Source: Plumapathes pennacea (Eukaryota; Cnidaria; Anthozoa; Antipatharia; Myriopathidae). From it: a DNA stretch of 64,000 bases. Where the stretch lies: the NCBI GenBank assembly GCA_964036295.1, contig OZ038464.1, forward strand, positions 6,620,001 through 6,684,000, in the 5' to 3' direction. Every line of letters starts with the position of its first letter. Position 1 is the first letter of the stretch. A program made the translations under genes and the position numbers. This document shows positions 21,577 to 63,732 of this stretch, in pieces. Below the pieces are notes generated by a model that saw nothing but the letters and a program-made list of their open reading frames with translations, searched no databases and was not told the DNA's origin.

Positions 21577-22256
21577 CTGTAAAATGCAAGCAAATCAGTT
21601 ATTCACAACATTCTGTCCAATATTTTTTAATCACATGAACGCATCCTACCAACGTAAAAAGTTACCGCATAACCCAGATGACATTCTTTTACTATAAACC
21701 AAGATATTCCCTTCGTCTTTGTTACAGCTCCTTCACACGTGCACTCTCTACTTTATGTCGACAACTAGAAAACACTAAAAGCAAAGGAATTAAAGTATAC
21801 ACACCAGTGAATGCTAGTACTGACATTAATCCATTCGAGTGATGCTTGTGCGAGTGCATTATCTCTAAGTTTGTCATAATTATGAAACGTAAACTGTCGC
21901 AGCTAATTATCTGGTCTCGACGAAAGTTTCTGTGGCGACACGGAATACCTCTGGGAAGATAGTAGGCCGAAAAACATAAAGGAGCGTAAACATTTTGCCG
22001 TAGACACCAACGCTTTGATGAACTACCGTAAACTAGGAATTCTCCAAGAGAAGTGAAGTGCTGCCTCTCATAAGACTCTTAATTAGCTAAAGTCACAAAA
22101 TGTATGGAACAGGACAATAACAACTCGCAATTACTTGAGCTTTATTTGAACAAACACTTGTCATCAGATGCAGCCGGTATTTTACCTGAGTTGGCTTAGT
22201 ACAGAAAATGATATGTGCATGTATAAAGCACTGACGTAATGCACTTGACATTATCA
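21577..22256. other. Intron upstream of the Roc exon
   Basis: No exon seen. At 21900-21985 there is a diverged fragment of Helitron family A (CGACGAAAGTTTCTGTGGCG). Confidence 0.5.
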
Positions 22257-33050: not shown

Positions 33051-33488
33051 TGGAGTAACATGCATATTTAACTAGAAATACGATAATCGCAGATATCCCC
33101 TCGCTCTGTAGTGGGTTCTTAAAGCGGGGTTGTTTATTTTCCGCTTGGAGATTATTTCAAAATCATTTTTACAAACCACGATTTGTGTAGCGACGTTACC
33201 AGTCGGCCGCTAAAAAAATTCTTTGTCGCATGGCAGTCTGGTTTAGTTCAGACAAAGTGTACAGTCTACAATTTTCGTGAACACTAGCTGAACTCCAAAA
33301 TTCGCAGAGACAACTTTTAAACGCAACTACAGAATACTCCTGAGACTTGAAAGCCAAAAAAAGCGCAAATAGAATCGTGACTCGATCAGTTTTGCACAGT
33401 CAGCAAAGTCGATCTTCGACACCAAAATTTTAATGAATTTTAAGAAAAGCCGCGATTTCTCCAGCCAACGCTGTATCCTAACCACATA

Positions 33489-33681
33489 AGCCTGGTCCTC
33501 ACTAGCGCATAAGCATAAGCATAAGCACAAGCATAAGAATAAGAGAGCGACAGTGGCGACATAAGCATAAGCATAAGGATCAAACACGTCCGTCCCTTAT
33601 GCTTATGCTTATGTCGCCACTGTCGCTCTCTTATTCTTATGCTTATGCTTTGTATACTTCTGCGCTAGTGAGGACCAGGCT
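33489..33681. mobile_element. Perfect-arm foldback element
   Basis: 193 bp, nearly all inverted repeat. Arms run AGCCTGGTCCTCACTAGCGC, then ATAAGC hexamers, then AATAAGAGAGCGACAGTGGC, mirrored on the other side around a short centre (GGATCAAACACGTCCGTCCC). The arms are almost identical, so it is young or repaired by conversion. Confidence 0.8.
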
Positions 33682-34449
33682 ATACCCCCTTTTTTTTTTT
33701 TTTTTCAACGCGAGATTCGCTTGTTTACACGCTTTCGAAGTCTGGCAAAATGTGTGATTTTTGGCAAGGATTCAATTTTGAACACAACAACTTTTCAAAC
33801 CGCGTTTGACGAATTTAAAATCTGACAGAAAAGAGAAATCAAGTCACTAAATAATACAAGGTCCGATTGTATTGAGCGAGCAAATTCGGCCACCCATGGA
33901 CAATAATATACAAATAGACTGTAATTGTTTAATTTGAAAATCAGTGGCCCATGGCCGGGTATTTTCTACTTTAATAGCCTTCAGAAAGCAAGAGCACTTC
34001 AACCCGGTTACATTTCGTCCTTGAATACAGTGTGCCAACAAACACGGCGAGAAAACTTCACAGCATTTCCATATGTCAGACTGTCAGCAAAATTATGCAA
34101 ATATGTCAGGAATCGGATGACACAATCTTATTTGAGTACGAAGGCACTCTGAAATAGGTTTGAAAACTTGCGAAAACGGATCACAATATAATCCTACTTG
34201 GCCTTCATCACAGTTCCCGGGGCATCAAACGACAAAATGTACGGCGATTGTTGAAATACCATAATGATAACAACACAACTTTAAAATAACATACGCGTAC
34301 TGTACGTTAATTGATGTAATTTTTCAAAACGCACCGGTTCCTGAAAGCCATAGCTTTAGCTCTTTTCCAGCAAAGGAAACAAACCCAAAACACTATTGTT
34401 TACGTCTTCAATGAATTCAAAATACAATGTATAGAGCAGTCCTCGTACA

Positions 34450-35112
34450 CTACGAAAATTCCACTTTCCATTGTATTGTGCGTCGTCGTCTTGTCAAAAC
34501 TTGGATTCTGAAAACTACAATCCTGTTATTGTAAAAGGTGAAATTTGCGACGGTAATTGTTCGATTTCCACCAACTGTATTTTGTTCTTCCTTTCTGAAG
34601 AAGTGTCTGCGTTTTAACACAATACTGGCGTCTGGGATTGTGTTCAGGTCGGCTAGTCGATGCCTTAAAGAATTCGTTTCACGGCTAGTAAGCTTGCCTC
34701 CCATACACTGGCAAAATATCCGGGCAGTTTACAGCCATCCGTCGAACTGCTTGTCGGTGTATCTGCATCTTGTTGTACAAAATCACTTTCGTGTGAGTCG
34801 TTTCTTTGGCCCGCGTTTGCTGCTGAAGCTCCCGATTCGCTTTCAATCGCTGTTCTCTTTGAGGAGTGTGCTTTTCTTCGGCCCATTTGTGTTCACGCCG
34901 CGTTGTATCGGCATTCGTGCGCTGTTTCCTTTGCGGGGTCGTTTCTTCAGCACGCTTCTGTTCATGATGCTTTCGGTCATAACACGGATTGTCGTCTTTT
35001 GGCGCTGTTCGATTGTTTCACAATTCCGCATTGCCCGTGCTTGTTCCCTTCTCTTTTGAAGACGAGTTTCACGAGACTTTTGTGTTTCAAGTTTTCCAGT
35101 TTTCAAATTCAT
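34450..35112 (-). pseudogene. Broken N-terminal coding piece of Helitron family B
   Basis: Begins MNLKTGKLETQKSRETRLQK as in the other family B copies. Frameshifts then spread the reading over several frames (KANRELQQQTRAKET; later RETNSLRHRLADLNTIP). Rep and helicase domains are not found. Confidence 0.6.
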
Positions 35113-35368
35113 TTTTGTGAACGCAGTTACGATATTGTTGCTTCGTCCAATCGATCTTATTCAGAGTATCAGTAAAACTACAGCGGGACACGTGATCGAT
35201 CCTTTGTCGTTGCTTAACGCGGATGGCCCTGGGGACGAGGTCGTACGCCAGCCAAACAGACAGACACACGAACAAACTCATAGCGTCGTGATTATTACCC
35301 TCGCTTCGCTCGGGGATGAGGGAAACGGCTTCACAGTTCAGAGTCTGATTCAAATAATTGCTCTTTAA

Positions 35369-38566: not shown

Positions 38567-38756
38567 GTTTTCTTGCAGGCAACGAGCGAGTCGCGGTTCT
38601 AAGTTCCTTAACAGATATCAAAGAGAACTTGTTTTGTGTTTCTTCATTCTGAACCCCTGTGAACAGTCAGACGATTCTCGAGTATTTTGCCCAATTCCCC
38701 GAGGTTGAATAATTCCATCGCGAAAACAACGAGCATGCAAAATCGCATCACGTTTT

Positions 38757-39575
38757 GAGCGTTAACCCTTTGCCGAAGCAAATGATTTTCCGCAACGAAG
38801 GGCTAACGCTCGAAACTTCAACTCAAATTTTTTAACGGCGCCCAGCTTTCACACACCGCTGGCCTTTTAGTTGATTGATCATACATCTTTCTCAATGCAG
38901 ACGCAGTCAAAGGCTAGTTGTCCCAAGAAGTAGCCTTCAAATGTATCTCTTCAAGACGGACACCTTTTTAAAATGGCAGCGCACACTTTCTAAGCGGATT
39001 TAAGTGTAAAATACCTCTCAAAGGGCAACCTGCATATTCAATTAAGATGCCGATGATATTAAAATCGTGGAACACTGTCGGACGCAAGCATCTTTAAGGT
39101 GGCTACATAGGATTTTTCGCACTTGGTTTTATTGAGTTTATTTACACTAAAACTGTCATATTTTCATTTCATTATATTCCTTGTTGATCAAATTTACAGA
39201 GACTGAGGATGTTTTGAAAAGTCTGTTGCGTGTACGTTCAATTTTGTCACTCTAGTGTGGTTTCTATGGAAAGAATACCTCCTTGAAATAAGGATCTTTT
39301 ATCCCATTTTCAAACTTTCTGCTCTATTTTCTGCAGTTTTATTAGGTGAAATTTGTTAAAACTTTTAATATGTTTAGAGATCGATATAAGGTAAAGAGCT
39401 GTGAAAAAAAGTTGGGGTTAAAGGAGCGCATTCTGAGCTAATTGGCATTTTTTGACTTTCGCAAATAAAAAAAAACTCCTACATAAATTTCCATTAAAAT
39501 TTAATATGACAAGACCGGATATAAGCTTCGTTTGCCTGAAAAATTTAGGACATTCACCAAAGGAAACTCCAGAAA
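38757..39575. repeat. Host repeat block (empty-site copy for Helitron B)
   Basis: Near-identical to 43331-43441 joined to 44928-45625, but without the Helitron. The join GGCCTTT|TAGTTGATTG is at 38867/38868. From 39098 it contains the left part of the TTAA-flanked element and then breaks off. Confidence 0.82.
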
Positions 39576-40093
39576 ACAAGACAGGACCGTGGCCAGTGCG
39601 CTTGTGACGTCATTAGTACAATGAATAGAGACACGCGGGGTCCCGGGAGAGGAACTTTTGTCATGCGTTTATATGCAAAAGATATTATAGCCGAGTCAGT
39701 TTTTGCAAATGACGGATCCAAGAGCTCCCTTTATTTTTCTTGCCCTCTTTTCTTCTAATTTCGGTCAAACAGATATTCACGAAAAAGTGTATTATAATAA
39801 TTGAGAGAAAACAATTATCGAAGGCCCCGTAGGAATATTCTTCGTTTGCAACAACCCAGTTTTCATTGCTTTCCAATGCACGTGACAGTACTTGTGTGAC
39901 GCTTTCTATACAACCTGGCAACCTTGTTGAGTGAATTTTCAAGCTGACATGTTTTGTGGAGGAACTGTGTTGTCATTTTGTAATTGGATTGACTGGGGAA
40001 TACCCGACATCTTAAGTAGCTGTAAGACAGCGTAATAGCCTTATCTCATCTTCCCAGCGTGTGCATCATGTTCAAGTAGCTGTAGCACATTAA

Positions 40094-42778: not shown

Positions 42779-43441
42779 CTAACGGAAAGCCACATGACAC
42801 AGTTACAATTCGCGCCGAAATTACTCAAACACTACTCATCACTTTGTCGCGTCACTAACTCGACAACAATTAGCCCCACTTTTCAAGTTTGAAACCTTAA
42901 TGACCGCGTCCCTCTCTTTGTGACATGCCTCTTAAGCTGGTCGTGCTCCAGCGTTCAACTTCTGCTACGAGCTATTCTGTCAAACATAGATTTTGAACGC
43001 GCAAAATCTCAAAACGTAGATAACCAGTCCTGAAGCTTGCGTTCTGTTGATCGCTACTCTTCGGTAGGCCGCAAAGTGTCCTTTTAATATAGAAATTGTG
43101 GGCTAATAAAGTAAACTATTACATATTTAAAACGATCTCTTGCCAGTTATTGGTAAAAAAAAAATCCGAGGTTAAAATTATTCTTTTAGATTGCAGATTC
43201 TAAAACAATCTGTGTTCAAGTCTATACTTCACTCAAATCCTTCTTAACGGACACCTGCCGTTTCTTCACACATGTTATCCTCTTAATAATTGTCTTCAAG
43301 ACGTTGTTACGAAGTTTGGCCTGACGTTTTGAGCGTTAACCCTTTCTCGAAGAAAATGATTTTCCGCAACGAAGGGCTAACGCTCGAAACTTCAACTCAA
43401 ATTTTTTAACGGCGCCCAGCTTTCACACACCGCCGGCCTTT

Positions 43442-44927
43442 TCCCCGAACGAAGTGAGGGAAATATTTACGACGCTAATGCAGCATAGTCGGCTCATCTG
43501 AAGACTCCAAGCGCGTCGCCATCTCGAAATCTAATGTTCGTGTGTTTGTTTGTGTGTGCGATGCGACCTTTTTAGGCCAGGTGCCTAAGGCAATGTCCAA
43601 ATAAGGCAATGACGTAATCATTATCGACTAGCCACCGCCATGTTTTTAAGAAAGATTTGAACGAAGCAACAATTGTACGTAACTGCGTTCACGAAAATGA
43701 ATTTGAAAGCTAGAAAACTTGAAACAGAACGGTCTCGCGAAGCTCGTCTTCAAAAGAGAAGCGAACAGGCACTTCAAGAGCAAAAGCGGACCGAAGAGAA
43801 GACTCCGCAAAGACAACAGCGCATGAATGCCGACCAAAAGCGACATGAACAGAAGCGGGCAACACAGACAACTCCGCAAAAAGAACAGCGCTTGAAAGCG
43901 AATCGGGACCTTCAGGAGAAAAAGAGGGCCGAAGAGAAGACTCCGCAAAGACAACAGCGCATGAATGCCGACCAAAAGCGACATGAACAGAAGCGGGTAA
44001 CACAGACAACTCCGCAAAGGGAACAGCGCTTGAAAGCAAATCGGGAGCTTCAGACGCCGTTTTGTGTTAAACTCAGATACTTATTTAGAAAGGACAAGCA
44101 ACAAAGGTTAGTCAGTGGAAACCGGACAATCACCGTGACAAATATATTGTATCCCGTATAGCTTGTAACTCGATCACTTCAAGAATGTATTAAAATCTGT
44201 ATGCTGATCATTTTCCCTCGAAGTATTGTTTTACTACGCTTCTGTCGCCAGTTTCGGCTACCGTATTTGCTCAGAGCAATCGGAACTTGGAGTCTTGAAT
44301 GATTTAGTCAGATGTCTTATTTTTCTGTAATCTGACACGCGGTGATTGCAGCGAGAATCGTTCACAAGCCCTTAGAAGTATTACTGGGTCTGAAGCCCGT
44401 GTATAATTTGAAGTAAACTGTTCAAGTTTTGCTTTGATTCTGGGAGAAATCTTGCTGTTTTGAGTGGGTTCACATACAAAACAATTCGAGACTATTAAAT
44501 ATGCATGTCTGAATCTGGTGCACGCAGTCCAGAGTAAAAACAAATCGCACAGGAAGCCTATTTAATTGTACTGCCTATGAATTCAAAATTGGAAAATCAG
44601 TGTTCCTTTTTTCCCGTACTACGACGGCCGACCAACTTCAAACTTTGAGTATTAAATTTTGAGAACGTGCTTGGCAGACTGCATGAATTAATTTGACGTG
44701 CCGACCGTGGGAAATACGTACTTCGTCACGCAATCGATTCTTTTTTCAACGCAAAAGTATAACACACACCATTCTTTTTCTCCTTCCTTTGCGTGTAGCA
44801 CTTGAGTTCGAAGAAAAGATTGAGTCAACGTTTCGGTAAAACAAAGGCTACTCTTGTTGGGAGTTACCAAAGTAAAAGTCCCATCAATGGCAGAGTGAGG
44901 GGGTATCTGCGATTATCGTATTTCTAG
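43442..44927 (+). mobile_element. Helitron family B with STPR-type coding piece
   Basis: 1486 bp, T|TCCCCGAACGAAGTGAGGG at the 5' end and GCGATTATCGTATTTCTAG|T at the 3' end. Removing exactly this interval rejoins GGCCTTT and TAGTTGATTG, identical to the empty site at 38867/38868, so there is no target-site duplication. TC...CTAG ends and insertion without duplication define Helitrons. It is non-autonomous: only an N-terminal coding piece remains, with no Rep or helicase. Confidence 0.88.
43697..44161 (+). CDS. STPR-type 23-residue repeat protein of Helitron B
   Basis: 154 codons from ATG. After MNLKARKLETERSREARLQK come four near-regular 23-residue units with the core KTPQRQQRMNADQKRHEQ or TTPQKEQRLKANR. 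At DNA level they form two almost identical 138-bp direct repeats (about 43794-43931 and 43932-44069). The highly charged Arg/Gln/Glu pattern of period 23 is that of the score-and-three-peptide repeat, a DNA-binding helical repeat also found in some Helitron-encoded proteins. The frame ends soon after the repeats. Confidence 0.72.
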   Translation: MNLKARKLETERSREARLQKRSEQALQEQKRTEEKTPQRQQRMNADQKRHEQKRATQTTPQKEQRLKANRDLQEKKRAEEKTPQRQQRMNADQKRHEQKRVTQTTPQREQRLKANRELQTPFCVKLRYLFRKDKQQRLVSGNRTITVTNILYPV

Positions 44928-45157
44928 TAGTTGATTGATCATACATCTTTCTCAATGCAGACGCAGTCAAAGGCTAGTTGTCCCAAGAAGTAGCCTTCAA
45001 ATGTATCTCTTCAAGACGGACACCTTTTTAAAATGGCAGCGCACACTTTCTAAGCGGATTTAAGTGTAAAATACCTCTCAAAGGGCAACCTGCATATTCA
45101 ATTAAGATGCCGATGATATTAAAATCGTGGAACACTGTCGGACGCAAGCATCTTTAA

Positions 45158-45839
45158 GGTGGCTACATAGGATTTTTCGCACTTGGTTTTATTGAGTTTA
45201 TTTACACTAAAACTGTCATATTTTCATTTCATTATATTCCTTGTTGATCAAATTTACAGAGACTGAGGATGTTTTGAAAAGTCTGTTGCGTGTACGTTCA
45301 ATTTTGTCACTCTAGTGTGGTTTCTATGGAAAGAATACCTCCTTGAAATAAGGATCTTTTATCCCATTTTCAAACTTTCTGCTCTATTTTCTGCAGTTTT
45401 CTTAGGTGAAATTTGTTAAATTAAGAGAATCGATATAAGGTAAAGAGCTGTGAAAAAAAGTTGGGGTTAAAGGAGCGCATTCTGAGCTAATTGGCATTTT
45501 TTGACTTTCGCAAATAAAAAAAAACTGCTCCATAAATTTCCATTAAAATCAAATACGACAAGACCGGATATAAGCTTCGTTTGCCTGAAAAATTTAGGAC
45601 ATTCACCAAAGGAAACTCCAGAAAAAAAGCAGAGAGAAACTTGATATTTTACGTGCGTATTGCGCCATCGAATGCAAAATATCGACAAGTGCGCACGCGT
45701 TAGCCGTAGTGTCCTTGCGCGTGAAAACAAGTTGTGCAAAACCAGCCCTTGATGTCAAGAACACATACCTTGATGTGCAAACAGCTAAACGAATATATCT
45801 CCAAAATGTTTTACATTTGCAAAACCTTGTGGAGCCACC
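45158..45839. mobile_element. TTAA-flanked inverted-repeat element, short copy
   Basis: 682 bp, ends GGTGGCTACATAGG / CTTGTGGAGCCACC, TTAA on both sides. It is an internally deleted relative of 35369-36918. Confidence 0.75.
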
Positions 45840-46620: not shown

Positions 46621-48843
46621 TTTCTATTCAGAAGAAAGGAAATCCGCATATACGACGGTTTCGCCTCTGATTGAGCATCCATATCATAAATCAAAGCAGC
46701 AAGGCAGCTGTAAGCTCGCGAATTTGTAAAAAGTACTTTTGCGGGAGTGGGTATTTAATAGAACTGGCTCAAGGCCACGTCGTAAAAATTGCTCAATTTT
46801 AGGTGTGGAAGTTCGCATCCGTTTCCGCGGCCTCCACTTTTGCTGAACCGCGTATTCGATTTAGTCTCAGTTTTGAAGTGACTGACTGACTGATTCAGTC
46901 TTAACTGCAATAAGGTGGGACGCTTAAAAATGCCACCGCAAAAACTACTTCGACGATCGCGTTCTCGATTTTGTTGCGTTGTCGGTAATATCGATACTGC
47001 CCAAATTGGGAACAGAACGACTTCCATATTTGGAATCCATTGTTGACAGCACCGGGACACATTCCAGTTGATTGGATCGCATGAAGCTTCGCTTTTCACC
47101 ACTTCGTGGTGAACGCGAGCTTAAAAACTTAGGGTTATAACAAATCAAAATGATTATCTTCTTGTAAGAAACTTATTGCAGCGTATTCAGTCAGAGAAAA
47201 CATGTTGTCGATGTTAAACGTTATGTGCGTATCAAATTGCAACCGCTCCCCAGTTCGTTCCCAGGCTCCTGGTTTCTCCGGGAGAGACGTTTGAATTCAG
47301 TGGCCGTTAAAACCGTTCAGTGACCACACTACTATCCCAAAACCGGGTTGTAATTTCGGATTCGTCAAAGTTATGTATGACGCAGATAATCCCCAAGCTC
47401 CGCGAGGGTAATAATCACGACGCTAATGCTGTAGTATCGCCTTATTTGGAGCGGCCAAAGCCGAAAGTCTTCGTATTCTCTTTGTATCGAGAGGAGAAAC
47501 GCTTACTATGAGCAAAGGAAGGAATTTCCACCATAATTCGATAAGTCGGTTAGGATTATATTGTTTGTCAGGTTCAAGCAAAATCGATTTTTACAACTTC
47601 TACGAAAAAAAAAAACGGGAACGGAGAATGGCATGGCCTTCTACTTCACGGCATTGAGTTTTGATGTGCTTTGTTTGTTTCACTTTATAAATCTGGTATG
47701 CAATCTGCAGTCTGCAGTCTGCATTTGTCGCACACCGGAATTTTCCTCGTTTCATCACGCGCGTGATAGTGTATGATAGTTTTTTGGTCAGCTGTTTTCC
47801 CCCTGAATGGACGGGCTAAAGCTTTCGCAGCATTCAACATGGCAAACAATGAAAAGCAATGAAAACAAGGCCGTGTCGAGCGATGAAGAAAGTAAAATTA
47901 AACAAAACAAAACAGATAGCGGCTCTTCTGTTCAAATAAAACAGACACATTTGTCATGTTTTCGTCGAGGCCTTGTTGACATTTTTACACGAGCTGGAGC
48001 TCGCGCGAGCGATTGCGTAATATTTCCGGTCGACTATCATGGGCGCTCTCTCTTGAACGTTTGATCGATTTCTATGATAGTTAATGATAGTAGGTGATAG
48101 TTTCGGGATCGCAAATATCATCAGCTGTCATTCACCGTTTGATCGGGGCTTAATGACCGCGCCCTGGTCTAGCGTTCAACTTCTGGTACGAGCAACTCCT
48201 GTCGACCATGTAATTTGAACGCGCAAATCTCGATACTCGTTAAATGCTTGGTGAGAACGACCACAAACAACTCCCACATGATTATGCTTCGCACATCCGT
48301 GAGCCAAAAATTACATACTTCACAACGTACCTGCACTGCTTAGTTTTATGAAGGTCGTCTTCGAATTCATAAAAAGTTTGAGTTTGATGCCAAAGAGAGC
48401 AACGCAATAGCCGAGTTTCATATTCCCGGACAGTCTGGGACGAGATATATTTTTGGCGCGAAATCGAGGCTAAAGCGGGGAGCATGCCAGTATTTACAGT
48501 GGCTTTATCAGTATTTACAGTGGTTTTTTCCAGTTTTTGACGTGCTGAAACATCATTTTTGTACATACAACCGTACCGATCAAACGGTGAAGATAGTCAA
48601 TGATAGTTGAAGCTCTCACGCCCAGTTGAACACGTACTTATCATGCACTATCCTGGACAATCATTAATTATCATTCGATTTGAGTTTGATGCCAAAGAGA
48701 GCAACGGAATAGCCGAGTTTCATATTCCCGGACAGCCTGGGACGAGATATCTTTTTGGCGCGAAATCGAGCCTAAAGCGGGGAGCATGACAGTATTTACA
48801 GTGGCTTTATCAGTATTTACAGTGGTTTTTTCAAGTTTTTGAC

Positions 48844-49044
48844 ATGCTGAAACGTTGTTGTACCTACAACCGTACTAACAGTGTAGAAAAACAGAAGCAG
48901 CCGGGAAAATACCCAGATTTGACGCATATAGCTTTCCATCCTTTTCCTTCTGACAATCCGGACGGACAGCACGACGACGACGGCAGATCCGCGAGAGGAT
49001 TGGGCAGAGAACGCGGTCGTGTCATGCATGTTCCAAGTACTTAA
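48844..49044 (+). pseudogene. THAP-like zinc-finger fragment in D1
   Basis: MLKRCCTYNRTNSVEKQKQP, then LTHIAFHPFPSDNPDG resembles the start of a THAP domain (paired Cys, then FHxFP). After that the D1 copy changes frame relative to D2 (61092). No full C2CH finger is present. It may be a relic of a THAP-bearing DNA transposase. Confidence 0.35.
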
Positions 49045-49262
49045 GCTGGTGTTACACCGGTCGATTTGCAACGACGATTTGCAACGCCGATTTGCTCCAA
49101 ATTCACTCAACGGTGTTGCAAGTTTTTGAATCACTTTTAAAAACTTGCAAGTCGTTGCAGAACTGCAAACATCGCAAAACATTGTTAGCCATGGGGTGTT
49201 ACACCTAAACGATTTTTAGCGAAACATCGTATCGTTGAAAATTGACCAGTGTAACACCACCC
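49045..49262. mobile_element. TTAA-flanked MITE in D1
   Basis: Ends GCTGGTGTTACACCGGTC / GACCAGTGTAACACCACCC, TTAA on both sides. The inside repeats CGATTTGCAACG. It is present at the same place in D2 (61294-61511), so insertion predates the duplication. Confidence 0.75.
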
Positions 49263-50378
49263 TTAAGCAGTAGCACGACGACTGAAGAGAACGCCCGATA
49301 AGCTGATCAGTTTTATTGTACCATTGTAAAATACTAGCGATTTATATGATCAAGGCCATTTAACCATGATACTGATATTAACCAACGAAAAGGCAGGTTA
49401 ATTACGATTCGGTTGAACCTGAGGTTATCCAGTAGTTTTCGTATGAATGACTATTAAATTAACCCTGTGATTGCTTTGGTTTTGCGTTTTCTACGCTTTC
49501 CGATTTATTTGCGATTGGTTGAAACAAGCTTAGCATGATTCTTGCCCAATCAAGAGTAAAAGCAAAACCTGGTTTCGACAGAAACACACCCCTTATACGA
49601 CCCGCCGAATTAGTCAGTTTGACCCGGTCGCAGGCGTCATACCGTCGAACTGTGCGTCAGCCGCACCTGCTTCTCAGCTAATCTCTAGAATGGTTACTCG
49701 GGTTGAGCCAGGCCGAAAAGATGTGGTTCGTGTGTAAATAACAGCAAATGAATATAACAATTTTCGGAACCAACGCCGAATTGCTTATCGCAACCTCAAT
49801 GGTTCATTACTGAGAGATTGTCAGTTTGTGTTTTCAACAGTCAGGCGGTTCTCAAGTATTGCCTAATCCGATTTACCGAGGTTGAAGAGTTCCGTCGCGA
49901 AAACAACAAACCTGAAAAATCGCAAAACACGCAAGAAGTCGACAAAATGGCAATAAAAAATCTAAACTGAAGAAAAACAAAATAAGCAATGGAAGAAAAC
50001 GCCTTTAGTGCAACTTAATTATATTTTTGAATGCCGTGGAAGGTGTCTTTACATGACTTATAGGCTGCGTAGCAAGAGTTTCTGTAGCTTTCCAGGCGCA
50101 CACGAACGCAAACGCTTGCTACACAGGCCACATCACTTGATACCTTAGTCTCAGCGGCTTTCTTGCAGGAACCCGCGAGCAAGCCACGGTTTTAAGTTGC
50201 TTAGCAGCACAGCAGAGCTAAGAATGCCATACCACCAATTATTTTACATTTAGTTCGAGGTCATCTGCACGCTCACTCTTCCCTCTGTCTGCTTACTCTT
50301 CAAATTTGTTGTGACGTTAAAGCTTCAACCTGTGCACAATGCTCATGGGTTTAGCTTCCTAGCACATACACTATTTAC

Positions 50379-50477
50379 CTCGTCCCTTGAGTGCAAATCA
50401 GCTCCAGCATTGATTAATTTAGTCACCACCTCCAGATATCCATTCCGTGAAGCAAAATGTAATGGGGTCCACTCAGC
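50379..50477 (-). CDS. Single ankyrin-repeat exon in D1
   Basis: Exactly 99 nt (33 residues), phase 0 at both ends, acceptor TTTCTCACAG, donor GAG|GTAAATAG. It reads AEWTPLHFASRNGYLEVVTK, then LINAGADLHSRDE, a full canonical ankyrin repeat. Its twin in D2 is 62633-62731. It could belong to the Roco gene's N-terminal ankyrin array, since strand and phase agree, or to a separate ankyrin gene. Confidence 0.82.
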
Positions 50478-50804
50478 CTGTGAGAAAAGAAACCAGCGTT
50501 ACAGACACATTGATAAATCAAACTTGTTAAGAACTTATTTATGAACGTTTCCCACACCTGTCATACCTCTGATTACTATGAATATCTGTACGTGTTAACA
50601 GTACAAATATATTGCAACTTTATTTCACTTTCTGACAATAAAAAAAAAATTGGAGACACAAAAGACTATAAACAAACCAAAGGCTAAAGTGCAATCACAT
50701 AACACAGTTGCAACTTGCGCCGAAACTACTCAAATATTACTCATTACTTCGTCGCGTCACTAACTCGACAACAACAGCTCCATCTTTTAAGTCTGAAAGC
50801 TTAA

Positions 50805-51344
50805 AGACCCGATCAAACGGTGAAGATAGTCAATGATAGTTAGTCAAGCTCTCACGCCCAGTTGAACACGTACTTATCATACACTATCCTGGACAATCAT
50901 TAACTATCATTCGATTTGAACGTGTTCAAATTTTCCATGATAGTCGATGAGAATTTTTCTTGTTTGATCACGCGTATGATAGTGCATGATAGTTTTTCGG
51001 TCAGCTGTTTTCCCCCTGAATGGACGGGCTCAGCATTCAAAATGGCAAGCAATGAAAACCACTGAAAACAAGACGGTGTCGAGTGATGAAGAAAGTAACA
51101 TTAAACAAAACAAAATGTCTCTTCTGTTCATATAAACAGCCTCGTTTGTCATGTTTTCGCCGAGGCGTTGTTGACAGTTTCACACGAACTAGAGCTTGCG
51201 CGAGCGATTGCGTAATACTTCCGGTCGACTATCATGGGCGCTCTTTCTTGAGCGTTTGATCGCTCTCTATGATAGTCGATAATAGTAGGTGAAACTTTCG
51301 GGATCGCAAGTATCATCAGCTGTCATTCACCGTTTGATCGGGGC
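50805..51344. mobile_element. TTAA-flanked element rich in GATAGT words (D1)
   Basis: 540 bp, ends (AGA)CCCGATCAAACGGTGAA / TTCACCGTTTGATCGGGG, flanked by TTAA. The inside has many ATGATAGT/ACTATCAT words in both orientations. Twin in D2: 63057-63593. Partial copies end near 48150 and 60703, and there is another fragment at 57500-57560. Confidence 0.72.
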
Positions 51345-51572
51345 TTAATGACTGCGCCCTGGTCTAGCGTTCAACTTCTGATCAACAATTGATCCCTCGG
51401 GCACTTTCGATAATACTCTAAGTAACTAATTGTCCTTTAAAAAATTAACCTAAACTTAAAATACTTCATTAAACTTAAAAGACTAGATATAATCAAGGAT
51501 TACAGTGCGTTCGTGCTACTGAATCGTGGAGTTGTTATAAAGGCATCGTTCGTATATGAAGAAGTACAGGTA

Positions 51573-55235: not shown

Positions 55236-56537
55236 CGTACCAAGATGGCGCCCAAAACCCTGAAATCGCATGGCATCCAACCGGAAATGACGCATACTAC
55301 GCGAGATCGAGGCAAATAGTCACATTCCTAATGGTTGTGACTAAACTGGATACTCCAAAATCAGGTTTCCGAGAGAAGACTGGGACCAAAATAACGAGTT
55401 ATCGGCGAGCCGTTTACGAACATTGTGGACCAAAAAACGACCTCGGTTTGTCTGAAGCATGGTTCTGACACCGGAAGAAAGTCAAATAAATTCGGCACTG
55501 GAAAGGTTTTAGAAGGAAAAAATTAGCTCGGGAAGAAAATACTAAAGAAGAGAGGCTTGTTCTGGCTGATTTGGCACAGATGAATCAGTATTGGCACCGA
55601 AGATAATATAATTCAAACAAAATCTAACTGTTCCGGAGGGCGATTAAAACGGCTTGTGTTACGATCCTGTGTTTCTTGATCAGTCTTAACTCCAGAAGAC
55701 GAACGCATTCACGATAAGACATGCAATCAAGATTTAAGCATTCCAAGCGAAGGTGCGAACTGTCAAAATTCGCCACAGGAATGATAAGTAAATAGAAATA
55801 ATAGTGAAGCCCATAGAAGCCAACAGTTATAGACGGATCAGATTCCCAACGTATCTTAAAAATATGTAGATATTTATCCGTATTTACTGTATTAGGATGG
55901 TTATATGTTATTTTCATCCACTTGACTTCGAAGAAAAGATTGAGTCAACATTTTGGTAAAACAAAGGCTGCTCTTGTTGACCAGTACCAAAGTAGAAGTC
56001 CAAATGGCAGAGCGAGGGGTATCTGCGATTATGGTATTTCTAGTATATATGTTATTTTCATCCAAATCCACTGTGTTCTCGAGCAAATGGCCGGCTGAGC
56101 CGAAATGTTACAAATAACAGTAATATTGTCCTTTTCACGTTCACAACAACAATGCTTCTTGTGTGTATCTGATGTTGACTGGTTACAGTTTCGACTTATG
56201 TCTTGAGCCGTTTCAGTTTTATTTGGAGTTGACCTCCACGTCCGTGTAAAAAGGAACACAGGCGGCGCGACGCGGCCAGCCGATTCGAACTAAAGGAAAT
56301 ACGTCCGGGTACGGACTTGCTAATGCGCGCCAAACACACTTTCAAAACATCAACGTCACTCTCGTACGGTTTTCGGAACACGGTCCGAGCTGACGAAAAT
56401 TTAATTTTTGATTCGGTCCCAGTTTCCTCTCGGAAACCTGATTTTGGAGTATCCAGTTTAGTCACAACCCATTCCTAATGCCGTACCAAGATGGCGCCCA
56501 AAACCCTGAAATCGCATGGCATCCAACCGGAAATGAC
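55236..56537. mobile_element. Composite element: direct repeats outside, inverted repeats inside
   Basis: GTACCAAGATGGCGCCCAAA and about 35 more bases occur at 55236-55293 and again, same orientation, at 56480-56537. Just inside, ATTCCTAATGGTTGTGACTA...GGGACC (55325-55390) is inverted at about 56400-56478. No transposase is visible. Confidence 0.55.
55921..56043 (+). mobile_element. Helitron B 3'-terminal fragment between direct repeats
   Basis: 123 bp matching the last part of 57741-59098, ending TTTCTAG. It is bounded on both sides by the same 19-bp sequence TATATGTTATTTTCATCCA (55902-55920 and 56046-56064). Confidence 0.75.
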
Positions 56538-56570: not shown

Positions 56571-56795
56571 AAAATAATTTTACTTCGTAAAGTTCTTCAT
56601 AAAAACAGCTATTCAAGACTTCAACGGGACAACCATTGCATTTTAAGCCGCAAAAAGTACTCAGATTTTGAAACAGCTCATGGGACGCTAACTCAAATAT
56701 TTAGTACTAAGGATGTGAATCCAACCTCAGTTTGCCACCTTAAAAATAAGAACTTTGAATAATGCAACAGCAGCGGAAATGAACCAATGCACAAT
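56571..56795. repeat. Unit-start repeat X, copy 1
   Basis: AATTTTACTTCGTAAAGTTC onward recurs at 63733-63953. It precedes block D2 here and follows it there. Confidence 0.82.
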
Positions 56796-57740
56796 GTTGC
56801 GTTGTCGGTAATATCGATACTGCCCAAATTGGGAACACAACGACTTCCATATTTGGAATCCATTGTTGACAGCGCCGGGACACATTCCAGTTGACTGGAT
56901 CGCATGAAGCTTCGCTTTTCACCACTTCGTGGTGAACGCGAGCTTAAAAACTTAGGGTTATAACAAATCAAAATGATTATCTTCTTGTAAGAAACTTATT
57001 GCAGCGTATTCAGTCAGAGAAAACATGTTGTCGATGTTAAACGTTATGTGCGTATCAAATTGCAGCCGCTCCCCAGTTCGTTCCCAGGCTCCTGGTTTCT
57101 CCGGGAGAGACGTTTGAATTCAGTGGCTGTTAAAACCGTTCAGTGACCGAACTACTATCCCAAAACCGGCTTGTAGTTTCGGATTCGTCAAAGTTATGTA
57201 TGACGCAGATAATCCCCAAGCTCCGCGAGGGTAATAATCACGACGCTAATGCTGTAGTATCGCCTTATGTGGAGCGGCGAAAGCCGAAAGTCTTTGTATT
57301 CTCTTTGTATCGAGAGCAGAAACGCTTGCTATGAGCAAAGGAAGGAATTTCCACCATAATTCGATAAGTCGGTTAGGACTATATTGTTTGTCAGGTTCAA
57401 GCAAAATCGATTTTTACAACTTCTACGAAAAAAAACATAGGTCCGCAAAGCGTACGTGAAGCTATTTGCTAGTTGATGATAGTCTATGGTAGGTAGTTCG
57501 TGTTACAACGGGGCACGAACTATCATCGAATATTATCACCGTTTGATCGCGGTTTTACACTATGTTCTACTATGCCAGCTACGTACTATGCATGACCAAA
57601 CACAAATGCACAAACATGACAGTTTATTATATGATTATTTTGAGCTGATCGACATAAAAGGAGGAAAGTATAGCTTGCCAAAATATTTCAAGTCGTTCTG
57701 TAAATTTCTGCGAGGTAAGCCAGACTTTGACTCCTTATAG

Positions 57741-59098
57741 TCCCCGAGCGAAGCGAAGCGATGTGAGGGTAATAATCACAGCGCTAATGCAGCAAATTCG
57801 CTTTGTGTGGAGACTCCAAGCGAGTCGCCATCTCGAAATCTAATGTTCGTCAGTCAGTCTGTCAGTCTGTCAGTCTGTCATAGGGCGACCTCTAAGGCAA
57901 TGACGTAATAATAATTATCGATTAGCGTCAAAGCGAGGTCAAACAAAGGTTTGAACGAAGCAACAACTGTACGTAACTGCGTTCACGAAAATGAATTTGA
58001 AAACTGGAAAACTTGACACAGCACGGTCTCGCGAAGCTCGTCTGCAAAAGGGAATGGAACTAGCACGGGCAAGGCAAAATCGTGAAACAATCGAACAGCG
58101 CCAAATACGTCTAGAGAAAAGACGACAAACATTTGATAACCGACAGCATCATGAACGGAGCGTGCCGAAGAAACGGCTCCGCAAAGGGAACAGCGCTTGG
58201 AAGCAAATCGGGAGCTTCAGACACCGTTTGTGTTAAACTCAGATCCTTATTCAGAAAGGACAAGCAACAAAGGTTAGTCAGTGGAAAGCGAACAATCACC
58301 GTGACAAATATATTCTACCCGTATCTTGTAACTCGATCACTTCAAGAATGTATTAAAATCTGTATGCTGATCATTTTCCCTCGAAGTATTGTTTTAATAC
58401 GCTTCTGTCGCCAGTTTCGGCTACCGTATTGGCTCAGAGCAATCGGAACTTGGAGTCTTGAATGATTTAGTCAGATGACTTATTTTTCTGTCAAGACTAA
58501 AACTGTAACAAATACTGTAATTTGACATGCGGTGATTGCAGCGAGAATCGTTCACAAGCCTTTAGAAGTATGACTAGGTCTGAAGCCCGTGTATAATTTG
58601 AAGTAAACCGTTCAAGTTTTGCTTTGATTCTGGGAGAAATCATGTTGTTTTGAGCGCGTTCACGTACAAAACAATTCGGCTCATTAAGCATGCATGCCTG
58701 AGTCTTGTGCATGCAATCCAGAGTAAAAACAAATTGCACAGGAAGCCTATTTAATTGTACTGCCTATGAATTCAAAATTGGAAAATCAGTGTTCCTTTTT
58801 TTCCGTACTACGACGGCCGACCAACTTCAAAATTTGAATATTAAATTTGAGAACGTGCTTGGCAGACTGTATGAATTAATTTGACGTGCAGACCGTGGGA
58901 AATACGTACTTCGTCAAGCAATCGACTCTTATAACACACACCATTCTTTTTCTCCTTCCTTTGCGTGTAGCACTTGACTTCGAAGAGAAGATTGAGTCAA
59001 CATTTCGGCAAAACAAAGGCTACTCTTGCTGGGAGTACCAAAGTAAAAGTCCCATCAATGGCAGAGCGAGGGGGTATCTGCGATTATCGTATTTCTAG
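57741..59098 (+). mobile_element. Helitron family B, third copy
   Basis: 1358 bp, from TCCCCGAGCGAAGCGAAGCG to GCGATTATCGTATTTCTAG|T. The flanks are halves of a repeat unit seen intact at about 59320-59360 (GACTCGTTATA...TAGTTTCGTA), a second empty-site comparison. A coding piece at 57991-58236 begins MNLKTGKLDTARSREARLQK; the 23-residue repeats are mostly lost. Confidence 0.82.
57991..58236 (+). pseudogene. Shortened coding piece of Helitron B
   Basis: 81 codons, homologous to 43697-44161 at the N-terminus, then ENRETIEQRQ-like residues and a frame change before a stop. It shares NRETIEQRQ-type words with the minus copy at 34450-35112. Confidence 0.6.
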
Positions 59099-60162: not shown

Positions 60163-61091
60163 AAAAATGGGAACGGAGAACGGCATGGCTTTCTACTTCA
60201 CGGCATTGAGTTTTGATGTGCTTTGTTTGTTTCACTTTATAAATCTGGTATGCAATCGGCACTCTGCAGTCTGCATTTGTCGCACACCGGAATTTTCCTC
60301 GTTTCATCACGCGCGTAATAGTGCATGATAGTTTTTTGGTCAGCTGTTTTCCCCTGAATGGACGGGCTAAAGCTTTCGCAGCATTCAACATGGCAAACAA
60401 TGAAAAGCAATGAAAACAAGACCGTGTCGAGCGATGAAGAAATTAAAATTAAACAAAACAAAACAGATAGCGGCTCTTCTGTTCATATAAACAGCCACAT
60501 TTGTCATGTTTTCGTCGAGGCCTTGTTGACATTTTTACACGAGCTAGAGCTCGCGCGAGCGATTGCGTAATATTTCCGGTCGACTATCATGGGCGCTCTC
60601 TCTTGAACGTTTGATCGATTTCTATGATAGTTAATGATAGTAGGTGATAGTTTCGGGATCGCAAATATCATCAGCTGTCATTCACCGTTTGATCGGGGCT
60701 TAATGACCGCGCCCTGGTCTAGCGTTCAACTTCCGGTACGAGCAACTCCTGTTGACCATGTAATTTGAACGCGCAAATCTCGATACTTGTTAAATGCTTG
60801 GTGAGAACGACCACAAACAACTCCCACATGATTATGCTTCGCACATCCGTGAGCCAAAAATTACATACTTCACAACGTACCTGCATTGCTTAGTTTTATG
60901 AACGTCGTCTTCGAATTCATAAAAAGTTTGAGTTTGATGCCAAAGAGGGCAACGCAATAGCCGAGTTTCATATTCCCGGACAGCCTGGGACGAGATATCT
61001 TTTTGGCGCGTAATCGAGGCTAAAGCGGGGAGCATGACACTATTTACAGTGGCTTTATCAGTATTTACAGTGGTTTTTTCCAGTTTTTGAC

Positions 61092-61320
61092 ATGCTGAAA
61101 CATTGTTGTACCTACAACCGTACTAACAGTGTAGAAAAACAGAAGCAGCCGGGAAAATACCCAGAGTTGACGCATATAGCTTTCCATCCTTTTCCTTCTG
61201 ACAATCCGGACGGGACAGCACGACGGCGACGGCAGATCCGCGAGAGGATTGGGCAGAGAACGCGGTCGTGTCATGCATGTTCCAAGTACTTAAGCTGGTG
61301 TTACACCGGTCGATTTGCAA
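61092..61320 (+). pseudogene. THAP-like zinc-finger fragment in D2
   Basis: MLKHCCTYNRTNSVEKQKQP, then LTHIAFHPFPSDNP, then a basic stretch and CSKY where a THAP finger would have CxxH. It is the longer-reading copy of the fragment at 48844. It lacks a complete metal-binding set. Confidence 0.38.
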
Positions 61321-61511
61321 CGACGATTTGCAACGCCGATTTGCTCCAAATTCACTCAACGGTGTTGCAAGTTTTTGAATCACTTTTAAAAACTTGCAAG
61401 TCGTTGCAGAACTGCAAACATCGCAAAACATTGTTCGCCATGGGGTGTTACACCTAAACGATTTTTAGCGCAACTTCGTATCGTTGCAAATTGACCAGTG
61501 TAACACCACCT
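61294..61511. mobile_element. TTAA-flanked MITE in D2
   Basis: Twin of 49045-49262 at the same relative place, TTAA on both sides. Confidence 0.75.
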
Positions 61512-62632
61512 TTAAGCAGTAGCACGACGACTGAAGAGAACGCCGGATAGGCTGATTAGTTTTATTCTACCATTGTAAAATACTAGCGATTTATATGATC
61601 AAGGCCATTTAACCATGATACTGATATTAACCAACGAAAAGGCAGGTTAATTACGATTCGGTTGAACCTGAGGTTATCCAGCAGTTTTCGTATGAATGAC
61701 TATTAAATTAACCCTGTGATTGCTTTGGTTTTGCGTTTTCTACGCTTTCCGATTTATTTGCGATTGGTTGAAACAAGCTTAGCATGATTCTTGCCCAATC
61801 AAGAGTAAAAGCAAAACCTGGTTTCGACAGAAACACACCCCTTATACGACCCGCCGAATTAGTCAGTTTGACCCGGTCGCAGGCGTCATACCGTCGAACT
61901 GCGCGTCAGCCGCACCTGCTTCTCAGCTAATCTCTAGAATGGTGACTCGGGTTGAGCCAGGCCGAAAAGATGTGGTTCGAGTGTAAATAACAGCAAATGA
62001 ATATAACAATTTTCGGAACCAACGACGAATTGCTTATCGCAACCTCAATGGTTCATTACTGAGAGATTGTCAGTTTGTGTTTTGAACAGTCAGGCGGTTC
62101 TCAAGTATTGCCTAATCCGATTTACCGAGGTTGAAGAGTTCCGTCGCGAAAACAACAAACCTGATAAATCGCAAAACTCGCAAGAAGTCGACAAAATGGC
62201 AATAAAAAATGTAAACTGAAGAAAAACAAAATAAGCAATGGAAGAAAACGCCTTCATTGCAACTTAATTATATTTTTGAATGCCGTGAAAGGTGTCTTTA
62301 CATGACTTATAGGCTGCGTAGCAAGAGTTTCTGTAGGTTTCAAGGCGCACACGAACGCAAACGCTTGCTACACAGGCCACATCACTTGATACCTTAGTCT
62401 CAGCGGCTTTCTTGCAGGAACCCGCGAGCAAGCCACGGTTTTAAGTAAAGTTGCTTAGCAGCACAGCAGAGCTAAGAATGCCATACCACCAATTATTTTA
62501 CATTTAGTTCGAGGTCATCTGCACGCTCACTCTTCCCTCTGTCTGCTTACTCTTCAAATTTGTTGTGACGTTAAAGCTTCAACCTGTGCACAATGCTCAT
62601 GGGTTTAGCTTCCTAGCACATACACTATTTAC

Positions 62633-62731
62633 CTTGTCCCTTGAGTGCAAATCAGCTCCAGCATTGATTAATTTAGTCACCACCTCCAGATATCCATTCC
62701 ATGAAGCAAAATGTAATGGGGTCCACTCATC
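62633..62731 (-). CDS. Single ankyrin-repeat exon in D2
   Basis: Exactly 99 nt, phase 0 at both ends, acceptor TTTCTCACAG, donor AAG|GTAAATAG. It reads DEWTPLHFASWNGYLEVVTK, then LINAGADLHSRDK. It differs from the D1 twin at three residues: Asp for Ala at 1, Trp for Arg at 11 and Lys for Glu at 33. The frame and splice sites are intact in both, so either could be used in a transcript. Confidence 0.82.
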
Positions 62732-63056
62732 CTGTGAGAAAAGAAACCAGCGTTACAGACACATTGATAAATCAAACTTGTTAAGAACTTATTTATGAAC
62801 GTTTCCCACACCTGTCATACCTCTGATTACTATGAATATCTGTACGTGTTAACAGTACAAATATATTGCAACTTTATTTCACTTTCTGACAATAAAAAAA
62901 AATGGAGATGCAAAAGACTATAAACAAACCAAAGGCTAAAGTGCAATCACATAACACAGTTGCAACTTGCGCCGAAACTACTCAAATATTACTCATTACT
63001 TCGTCGCGTCACTAACTCGACAACAGCAGCTCCATCTTTTAAGTCTGAAAGCTTAA

Positions 63057-63593
63057 AGACCCGATCAAACGGTAAAGATAGTCAATGATAGTTCAAGCTC
63101 TCACGCCCAGTTGAACACGTACTTATCATGCACTATCCTGGACAATCATTAACTATCATTCGATTTGAACGTGTTCAAATTTTCCATGATAGTCGATGAG
63201 AATTTTTCTTGTTTGATCACGCGTATGATAGTGCATGATAGTTTTTCGGTCAGCTGTTTTACCCCTGAATGGACGGGCTCAGCATTCAAAATGGCAAGCA
63301 ATGAAAACCAATGAAAACAAGACGGTGTCGAGTGATGAAGAAAGTAAAATTAAACAAAACAAAATGGCTCTTCTGTTCATATAAACAGCCTCGTTTGTCA
63401 TGTTTTCGCCGAGGCGTTGTTGACAGTTTCACACGAACTAGAGCTTGCGCGAGCGATTGCGTAATACTTCCGGTCGACTATCATGGGCGCTCTTTCTTGA
63501 GCGTTTGATCGCTCTCTATGATAGTCGATAATAGTAGGTGAAACTTTCGGGATTGCAAGTATCATCAGCTGTCATTCACCGTTTGATCGGGGC
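63057..63593. mobile_element. TTAA-flanked GATAGT-rich element (D2)
   Basis: Twin of 50805-51344, same ends and TTAA flanks, 537 bp. Confidence 0.72.
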
Positions 63594-63732
63594 TTAATGA
63601 CTGCGCCCTGGTCTAGCGTTCAACTTCTGATCAACAATTGATCCCTCGGGCACTTTCGATAATACTCTAAGTAACTATTTATCCTTTAAGAAACTTAGCC
63701 TAAACTTAAAATACTTGATTAAACTTAAAAGA

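Follow-up and report, generated by a model that had tools for sequence, protein, structure and literature searches.

Which kind of mobile element occupies positions 43442-44927 of the window, how does it choose the sites into which it inserts, and what is the meaning of the 23-residue repeats encoded in it? By the window we mean the whole stretch of 64,000 nucleotides of Plumapathes pennacea that was analysed, which corresponds to C3:6620001-6684000 of a 290-Mb genome in 24 contigs. The following features define the element and its insertion site:

43442..44927, plus strand: non-autonomous Helitron of 1,486 bp, flanked by TTT and TAG, with a base-exact paralogous empty site
43442..43475, plus strand: 5' terminal 34 nt, TC at the start; 1,482 places in the genome at up to 3 mismatches (reversed control: 0), identical in the longer element L078
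44890..44927, plus strand: 3' terminal 38 nt, CTAG at the end; in all 38 fetched copies whose 3' end could be located
38750..39580, plus strand: paralogous stretch with the empty site, the join lying between 38867 and 38868

The element starts with TCCCCGAACG and ends in CTAG. Cutting it out joins GGCCTTT to TAGTTGATTG, and exactly this sequence is found uninterrupted at 38861-38877. The initial annotation, made from the letters alone, had described this empty site, the lack of a target duplication and the TC and CTAG termini, and all three were borne out here. In BLAST self-matches, the left shared flank covers 119 bp (43324-43442 and 38750-38868, 96.6% identity) and the right one 713 bp (44928-45629 and 38868-39580, 97.3% identity). 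Since filled and empty copies share their flanks at these identities, the empty site is a paralogue and not an allele.

Canonical Helitrons are described as starting with TC, ending in CTRR, carrying a 3' hairpin and being inserted between A and T (PMC4067079, PMC4778049, PMC5876387). Note that statements on published systems refer, here and below, to passages of the cited papers. The 3' terminal 38 nt, which differ by a single base in copies L018, L033 and L036, contain by eye a possible 5-bp stem, GCAGA/TCTGC, 13 nt from CTAG. The hairpin signal is weak: the folding is not better than that of shuffled sequences (z of -1.13 and -0.71), and the stem is absent from the optimal fold of the window copy, appearing only in that of a related copy at 59051-59098. 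The motif GTGAGGG is located close to both ends of the element.

To describe the family, we used a 74-nt query from the 5' end. The best 40 of 1,262 candidates were all 100% identical over 73-74 nt, and from these we fetched the 39 matches besides the window's own; the TC at their 5' end is thus preset by the query. The 3' end could be located in 38 of the 39 (the exception is L040, which is excluded here), and CTAG is present in every one of them. Most of these 38 copies are similar in length: 33 measure 1,348-1,624 bp, four 2,487-3,938 bp and one 447 bp. An alignment of 30 copies (29 fetched ones and that of the window, with 10 fetched copies excluded because their matches were split) gave a divergence from the majority sequence of 0.35% in the ORF, 0.63% on its 3' side and 0.99% on its 5' side, the last figure being held down by the exact 5' query. 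As the copies were picked by an exact 5' end, older ones are under-represented, and the copy counts include any copies that lie within duplicated segments of the genome. The family is young, and the element at 43442-44927 is a young, high-copy, non-autonomous Helitron.

We also checked the 38 other insertions for paralogous empty sites within the sequence covered by the analysis. Four are base-exact (L011, L021, L023 and L026), the empty site of L021 being one of a series of tandem units, four of which are shown. Several others are less clean: L034 differs by two substituted bases, TG instead of the CC found at -2 and -1 in its empty relatives, the left join of L036 contains three bases more than its empty relative, and the best paralogue of L017 carries G at +1. 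The matches of L009, L020, L025 and L037 are ambiguous, and for the remaining insertions we found no match across the join.

The window itself contains further members of the same end family:

57741..59098, plus strand: related Helitron flanked by TAG and TAG, similar ORF start, frame broken
33072..35316, minus strand: related Helitron flanked by TCA and TTA, similar ORF start, frame broken
55919..56043, plus strand: 3' end fragment ending in CTAG, followed by TAT

The first of these sits between the pieces of the second copy of a direct duplication, in which 46972-51482 is matched by 56795-57435 and 60163-63732 (pieces of 641-2,811 bp, 96.8-97.8% identity). Elsewhere in the window, between 11884 and 30730, a unit of about 0.9-1.1 kb recurs at about 11.9, 17.3, 22.3, 23.4 and 29.7 kb with 77-95% identity, and near this unit an ORF on the minus strand (20378-21589) matches the Roc GTPase domain (PF08477, 5.4e-16).

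Which protein could move such an element? A search of the genome with the Helitron_like_N profile gave 209 candidates, of which the best 150 were scored; all matches listed are above the cut-off. One of the loci, L078, lies on the minus strand of contig C1 (C1:12217897-12230439) and spans 12,543 bp. An exact 5' end at C1:12230439 precedes its Rep match (C1:12227105-12227626, minus strand) by 2.8 kb, and at C1:12217897 there is an exact 3' end oriented like the Rep. The sequence analysed covers 9.9 kb and the 3.0 kb at 12217897-12220899 are outside it, so we infer that this 3' end belongs to L078. The first 34 nt are identical to those of the window element, and positions 1-613 of the element match L078 at 77.5%, while for positions 614-1486 no match was found in the 9.9 kb at E 1e-3. 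Two further Rep matches on C1, at 36367779 (plus strand) and 36404240 (minus strand), are followed 11-12 kb downstream by exact 3' ends of matching orientation.

The coding content of L078 is that of a Helitron transposase with a long N-terminal region. Its ORF starts with MNLK..KLETERSREARLQKR, similar to the start of the window ORF, and ORF1 contains two CxxC motifs, which are of the Zn type, along with ten copies of a 23-residue repeat of the EKTPQREQRLKAKRELQKEKRAE type. A DUF6570 domain is split over two open frames, whereas L063, L075 and L077 are continuous across the place of the split; a 521-nt GT-AG intron would fit between the L078 frames. The second frame runs for 1,603 aa without a stop and contains Helitron_like_N (1.3e-29), PIF1 (1.5e-26), Pif1_2B and OTU (3.7e-11) as well as the motifs IHAH (HUH), YMAKY (Y2) and Walker A. 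L078 is likely to be the autonomous partner of the short element. The initial annotation had predicted that a genome search with the terminal sequences would lead to a copy encoding the same repeats followed by Rep and a PIF1-like helicase; such a longer partner with exact ends was indeed found (the 3.0 kb inside its 3' end lying outside the analysed sequence), and a transposase with target duplications, which it had named as contrary evidence, was not seen.

CTAG ends, exact empty sites without duplication and a partner with an HUH-Y2 Rep and a PIF1 helicase are features of canonical Helitrons. We found no support for a cut-and-paste DNA transposon or for a non-mobile duplication with look-alike ends, and either reading has practically no chance of being correct: the empty sites of the window copy, L011, L021, L023 and L026 show no target duplication, the two ends are by inspection not inverted copies of each other, and both same ends are carried by a RepHel element.

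The insertion junctions were studied in 39 copies, that is, 38 fetched ones and the window copy. The base at -1 is A in 29, G in 6 and T in 4 of them, and the base at +1 is T in all 39, so that the junctions are A/T, G/T and T/T, respectively. The T/T junction of the window copy was the reason for considering a Helentron or DINE-1-type element, with a TT target and an endonuclease-bearing partner, and OTU genes have been found in Helentrons as well (PMC4067079). We dropped this assignment on the flanks of the 39 copies and the domains of the partner, and consider it very unlikely: T/T is found in only 4 of the 39 copies, the ends are TC and CTAG, variable T runs at the ends occur in none of the 39, and a Pfam search at E<=0.01 found no AP endonuclease in either open frame of L078 (with 12217897-12220899, 3.0 kb, outside the search).

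One position of the left flank shows no variation at all. T is present at -3 in 39 of 39 copies, with positions -2, -4, -5 and -6 being mixed. Genome-wide, the exact 30-nt 5' end is preceded by T at -3 in 251 of 251 cases and by another base in 0, and in the wider subfamily with the end TCCCCGAGCGAAGCGAGGG this holds for 498 of 511, the remaining 13 having another base. For comparison, the background frequency of T at -3 before A, G or T followed by T is 29.4% in the window (4,384/14,915). Among the first 100 of the 251 exact 5' ends, -2 is T in 63, A in 33, G in 3 and C in 1, and -1 is A in 69, G in 17, T in 13 and C in 1. On the right side, the 3' end is followed by T at at least 302 places (604 match rows, with up to two rows per place) and by another base at 1. 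In summary, A occupies -1 in about 70% of the copies, the fixed base is the T at -3, and the T at +1 is nearly invariant. A T at -3 that forms part of the element was considered and ruled out: the exact empty sites of the window copy, L011, L021, L023 and L026 already contain that T, which is therefore the target's own.

These counts put the initial annotation's view of the target in a different light. The T that it had given as the left neighbour is true for the window copy but is shared by a minority of copies (4 of the 39 junctions and 13 among the first 100 listed), and its "slightly relaxed" target choice understates the site, missing the invariant T at -3 (251/251). For maize Helitrons, both departures from AT and a head-to-tail arrangement have been reported (PMC2267711); in maize and rice, A is preferred on the left and the end is given as CTAGT (PMC2575219); Helraiser prefers AT, with AT-rich DNA within about 20 bp (PMC4778049). 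In the text on target sites in this literature a T at -3 is not mentioned; sequence logos, as figures, lie outside that text.

Potentially, the T at -3 is not read by Rep and merely reflects insertion into T/A-rich, easily melted DNA. The flanks are generally rich in T and A (T or A occupies -2 in 96 of the 100 copies listed first), and the AT-rich surroundings favoured by Helraiser (PMC4778049) would agree with this. However, T is found at -3 in 251 of 251 copies while -2, -4, -5 and -6 are mixed in the 39 copies; if melting in general were the cause, no single position should be fixed next to variable ones. This disfavours melting as the only cause, and we regard that explanation as improbable.

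We now turn to the coding part of the element, which comprises the following features:

43697..44161, plus strand: ORF of 154 aa, counting the stop, with four STPR-like repeats of 23 residues, a putative remnant of a transposase N-terminus (from the ORF list, the lag-23 period, motifs and the L078-like start)
43759..43915, plus strand: first copy of a 138-bp direct repeat, two 23-codon units (BLAST self-match, 91.8%)
43896..44053, plus strand: second copy of the 138-bp direct repeat (BLAST self-match)

The array of 23-residue repeats and its two 138-bp direct repeats, both proposed in the initial annotation, are confirmed: the two stretches share 91.8% identity at an offset of 137-138, the best lag in the window ORF is 23, as it is in L048, L049, L051 and L078, and TPQ-type motifs are spaced accordingly, at residues 35, 58, 81 and 104 (frame from 43700). 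The number of 138-bp units varies between copies, with one in L012, L024 and L025 and three in L022 and L034.

The name STPR, which the initial annotation had given to the repeats, fits their period of 23 residues, but the Pfam STPRs profile (PF21107) scores the window ORF at 10.6 bits only, with a cut-off of 27 (E=0.79). The same profile lists none of L078, L049 and L051 at E<=10, despite their having the clearest 23-residue arrays; among the proteins scanned, only L074, another Helitron locus, passes the cut-off (30.9 bits). In this lineage it is the period and the pattern that support the link to STPR. We scanned 30 Rep loci with 1.5 kb upstream, a range that misses arrays located farther away (as in L078), so that the following numbers are lower bounds. 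Strong 23-residue arrays are found in at least 3 of the 30 loci (L048, L049 and L051), in addition to L074 via Pfam, and a 19-residue array of the SKNVEKYKSMEPKQKKDLL type in at least 8 of the 30 (L054-L057, L059-L061 and L073). In L059 the highest score is that of the doubled lag, 38, and L054 matches DUF3106. Our literature search returned no paper tying 23-residue STPR repeats to Helitron transposases and none joining Helitron and DUF6570.

Is the short ORF selected or used? In 22 of the 30 aligned copies the frame is intact at 154 aa and in one more it has 156 aa, and among the best 150 of 4,123 candidates for related open frames those listed have 143-212 aa; they fall into two protein groups, with identities of 96-100% and 92-94%. 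Together with the divergence in the ORF being lower than on its 3' side (0.35% and 0.63%), this could mean that the ORF encodes a working product, for example a transposase competitor or a helper that binds the ends of the element. On the other hand, changes found in a single copy are neutral: 29 are non-synonymous (N) and 10 synonymous (S), and 29.3 and 11.9 are expected from the base- and CpG-specific rates outside the ORF. Moreover, given the young age of the copies, intact frames would be expected regardless. We think that a working product is unlikely. A count over all copies (29 N, 19 S, p = 0.03) had suggested constraint; with each distinct change counted once, the numbers are 29 N and 12 S (p = 0.59), and the signal of selection was dropped because of the once-only counting and the context-specific rates. 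The ORF looks like a remnant that decays neutrally after insertion. The initial annotation had written of a possible DNA-binding module separated from Rep and helicase; its anatomy holds, but the Pfam STPR score is below the cut-off and no selection on the ORF was detected in the copies. As a separate observation, the second codon positions of the ORF have 4 single-copy changes compared with 12.5 expected, although the N/S counts are neutral.

How might insertion proceed? The 3' end of the element with its following base, TAG^T, fits the word seen at the target, and from this we infer that Rep reads TNN^T at the donor ends and at the target; note that the word is derived from flanks and not from cleavage. 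Rep would nick the word at four places. On the donor these are the left end, which reads TNN^TC, and the right end, which reads CTAG^T; the other two are the junction of a circle or tandem, CTAG^TC, and the target itself, TNN^T. At integration, the TNN of the target would come to lie on the left of the element and its T on the right, whereby the word would be rebuilt at both ends. Given the common ends, a partner of the L078 kind would move the short element; judging from its composition, the basic 23-residue array may help the transposase to hold DNA, and the short element may retain the start of this array as a remnant.

Head-to-tail pairs of copies bear on the junction. We found 14 pairs within 30 nt, 7 of them without a spacer, and 0 in the control; the pairs without a spacer are compatible both with rolling-circle read-through and with insertion of an element at an older copy's TAG^T. 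In L018, one of these 7 pairs, positions 149-216 hold a 3' end and, directly after it, the first 16 nt of the 5' end four times in tandem; three of these are additional copies, each with TGA as its end before T, and the last of the four continues into a full element. Such an iteration might arise if termination occurred early, after TGA, several times over, each time with rejoining to the same 5' end. A cluster of head-to-tail copies, with one junction lacking a spacer, is also found on the minus strand at C1:18128088-18136447.

Taken as a whole, the reading in which a young non-autonomous canonical TC/CTAG Helitron is moved by a RepHel partner that would nick at TNN^T and hold DNA with its array, with the ORF as a remnant, is one in which we have high confidence. 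A more far-reaching version has about an even chance of being right: a single word, TNN^T, would be read by Rep at the two ends of the donor, where a tandem or circle is joined, and in the target, with an absolute T at -3 and a preference for A at -1; since the CTRR 3' end of canonical Helitrons likewise has T at -3, the rule may hold for Helitrons generally; and the N-terminal arrays of Helitron transposases in this genome, of which there are at least two (the 23-residue STPR-like and the 19-residue one), would be exchangeable DNA-gripping modules.

The element belongs to a known kind; its target rule is sharper and its N-terminal module unusual. Like Helraiser, Helibat1 and HelibatN of bats, it has TC at the 5' end, CTAG at the 3' end and no target duplication; CTAG-TC head-to-tail junctions, a Rep of the HUH type with two tyrosines, a PIF1-like helicase and many short non-autonomous relatives are likewise shared (PMC4778049, PMC5876387). 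Unlike here, where A at -1 accounts for about 70% and G and T are common, Helraiser is inserted at AT in all but 46 of 1,751 cases, and the partner described here differs in having the basic 23-residue array and a C-terminal OTU domain. The Xuan-Feng Helitrons of wheat likewise pair a non-autonomous element with an autonomous one elsewhere in that genome, and have a long N-terminal region before RepHel; theirs, however, has a zinc-finger-like motif and a disordered region in this N-terminus, no repeat array is described in the passages cited, and the AT preference is marked (PMC13286980). Helentrons and DINE-1 share the rolling-circle mode, short non-autonomous members, OTU genes and T-containing targets, but have an AP endonuclease, subterminal inverted repeats and a TT preference (PMC4067079), whereas here an endonuclease was not found in the frames covered and TT is in the minority. 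Finally, silkworm FMBP-1 also contains 23-residue repeats, which form its DNA-binding domain, but it is a transcription factor and not a transposase (PMC4821344).

The usual rule for Helitron targets is "between A and T". Hundreds of copies with an identical 5' end, together with a partner whose frame is open, lead to a target rule that is base-exact and can be tested. Furthermore, they connect the 23-residue repeat, which is DNA-binding in FMBP-1, to Helitron transposases.
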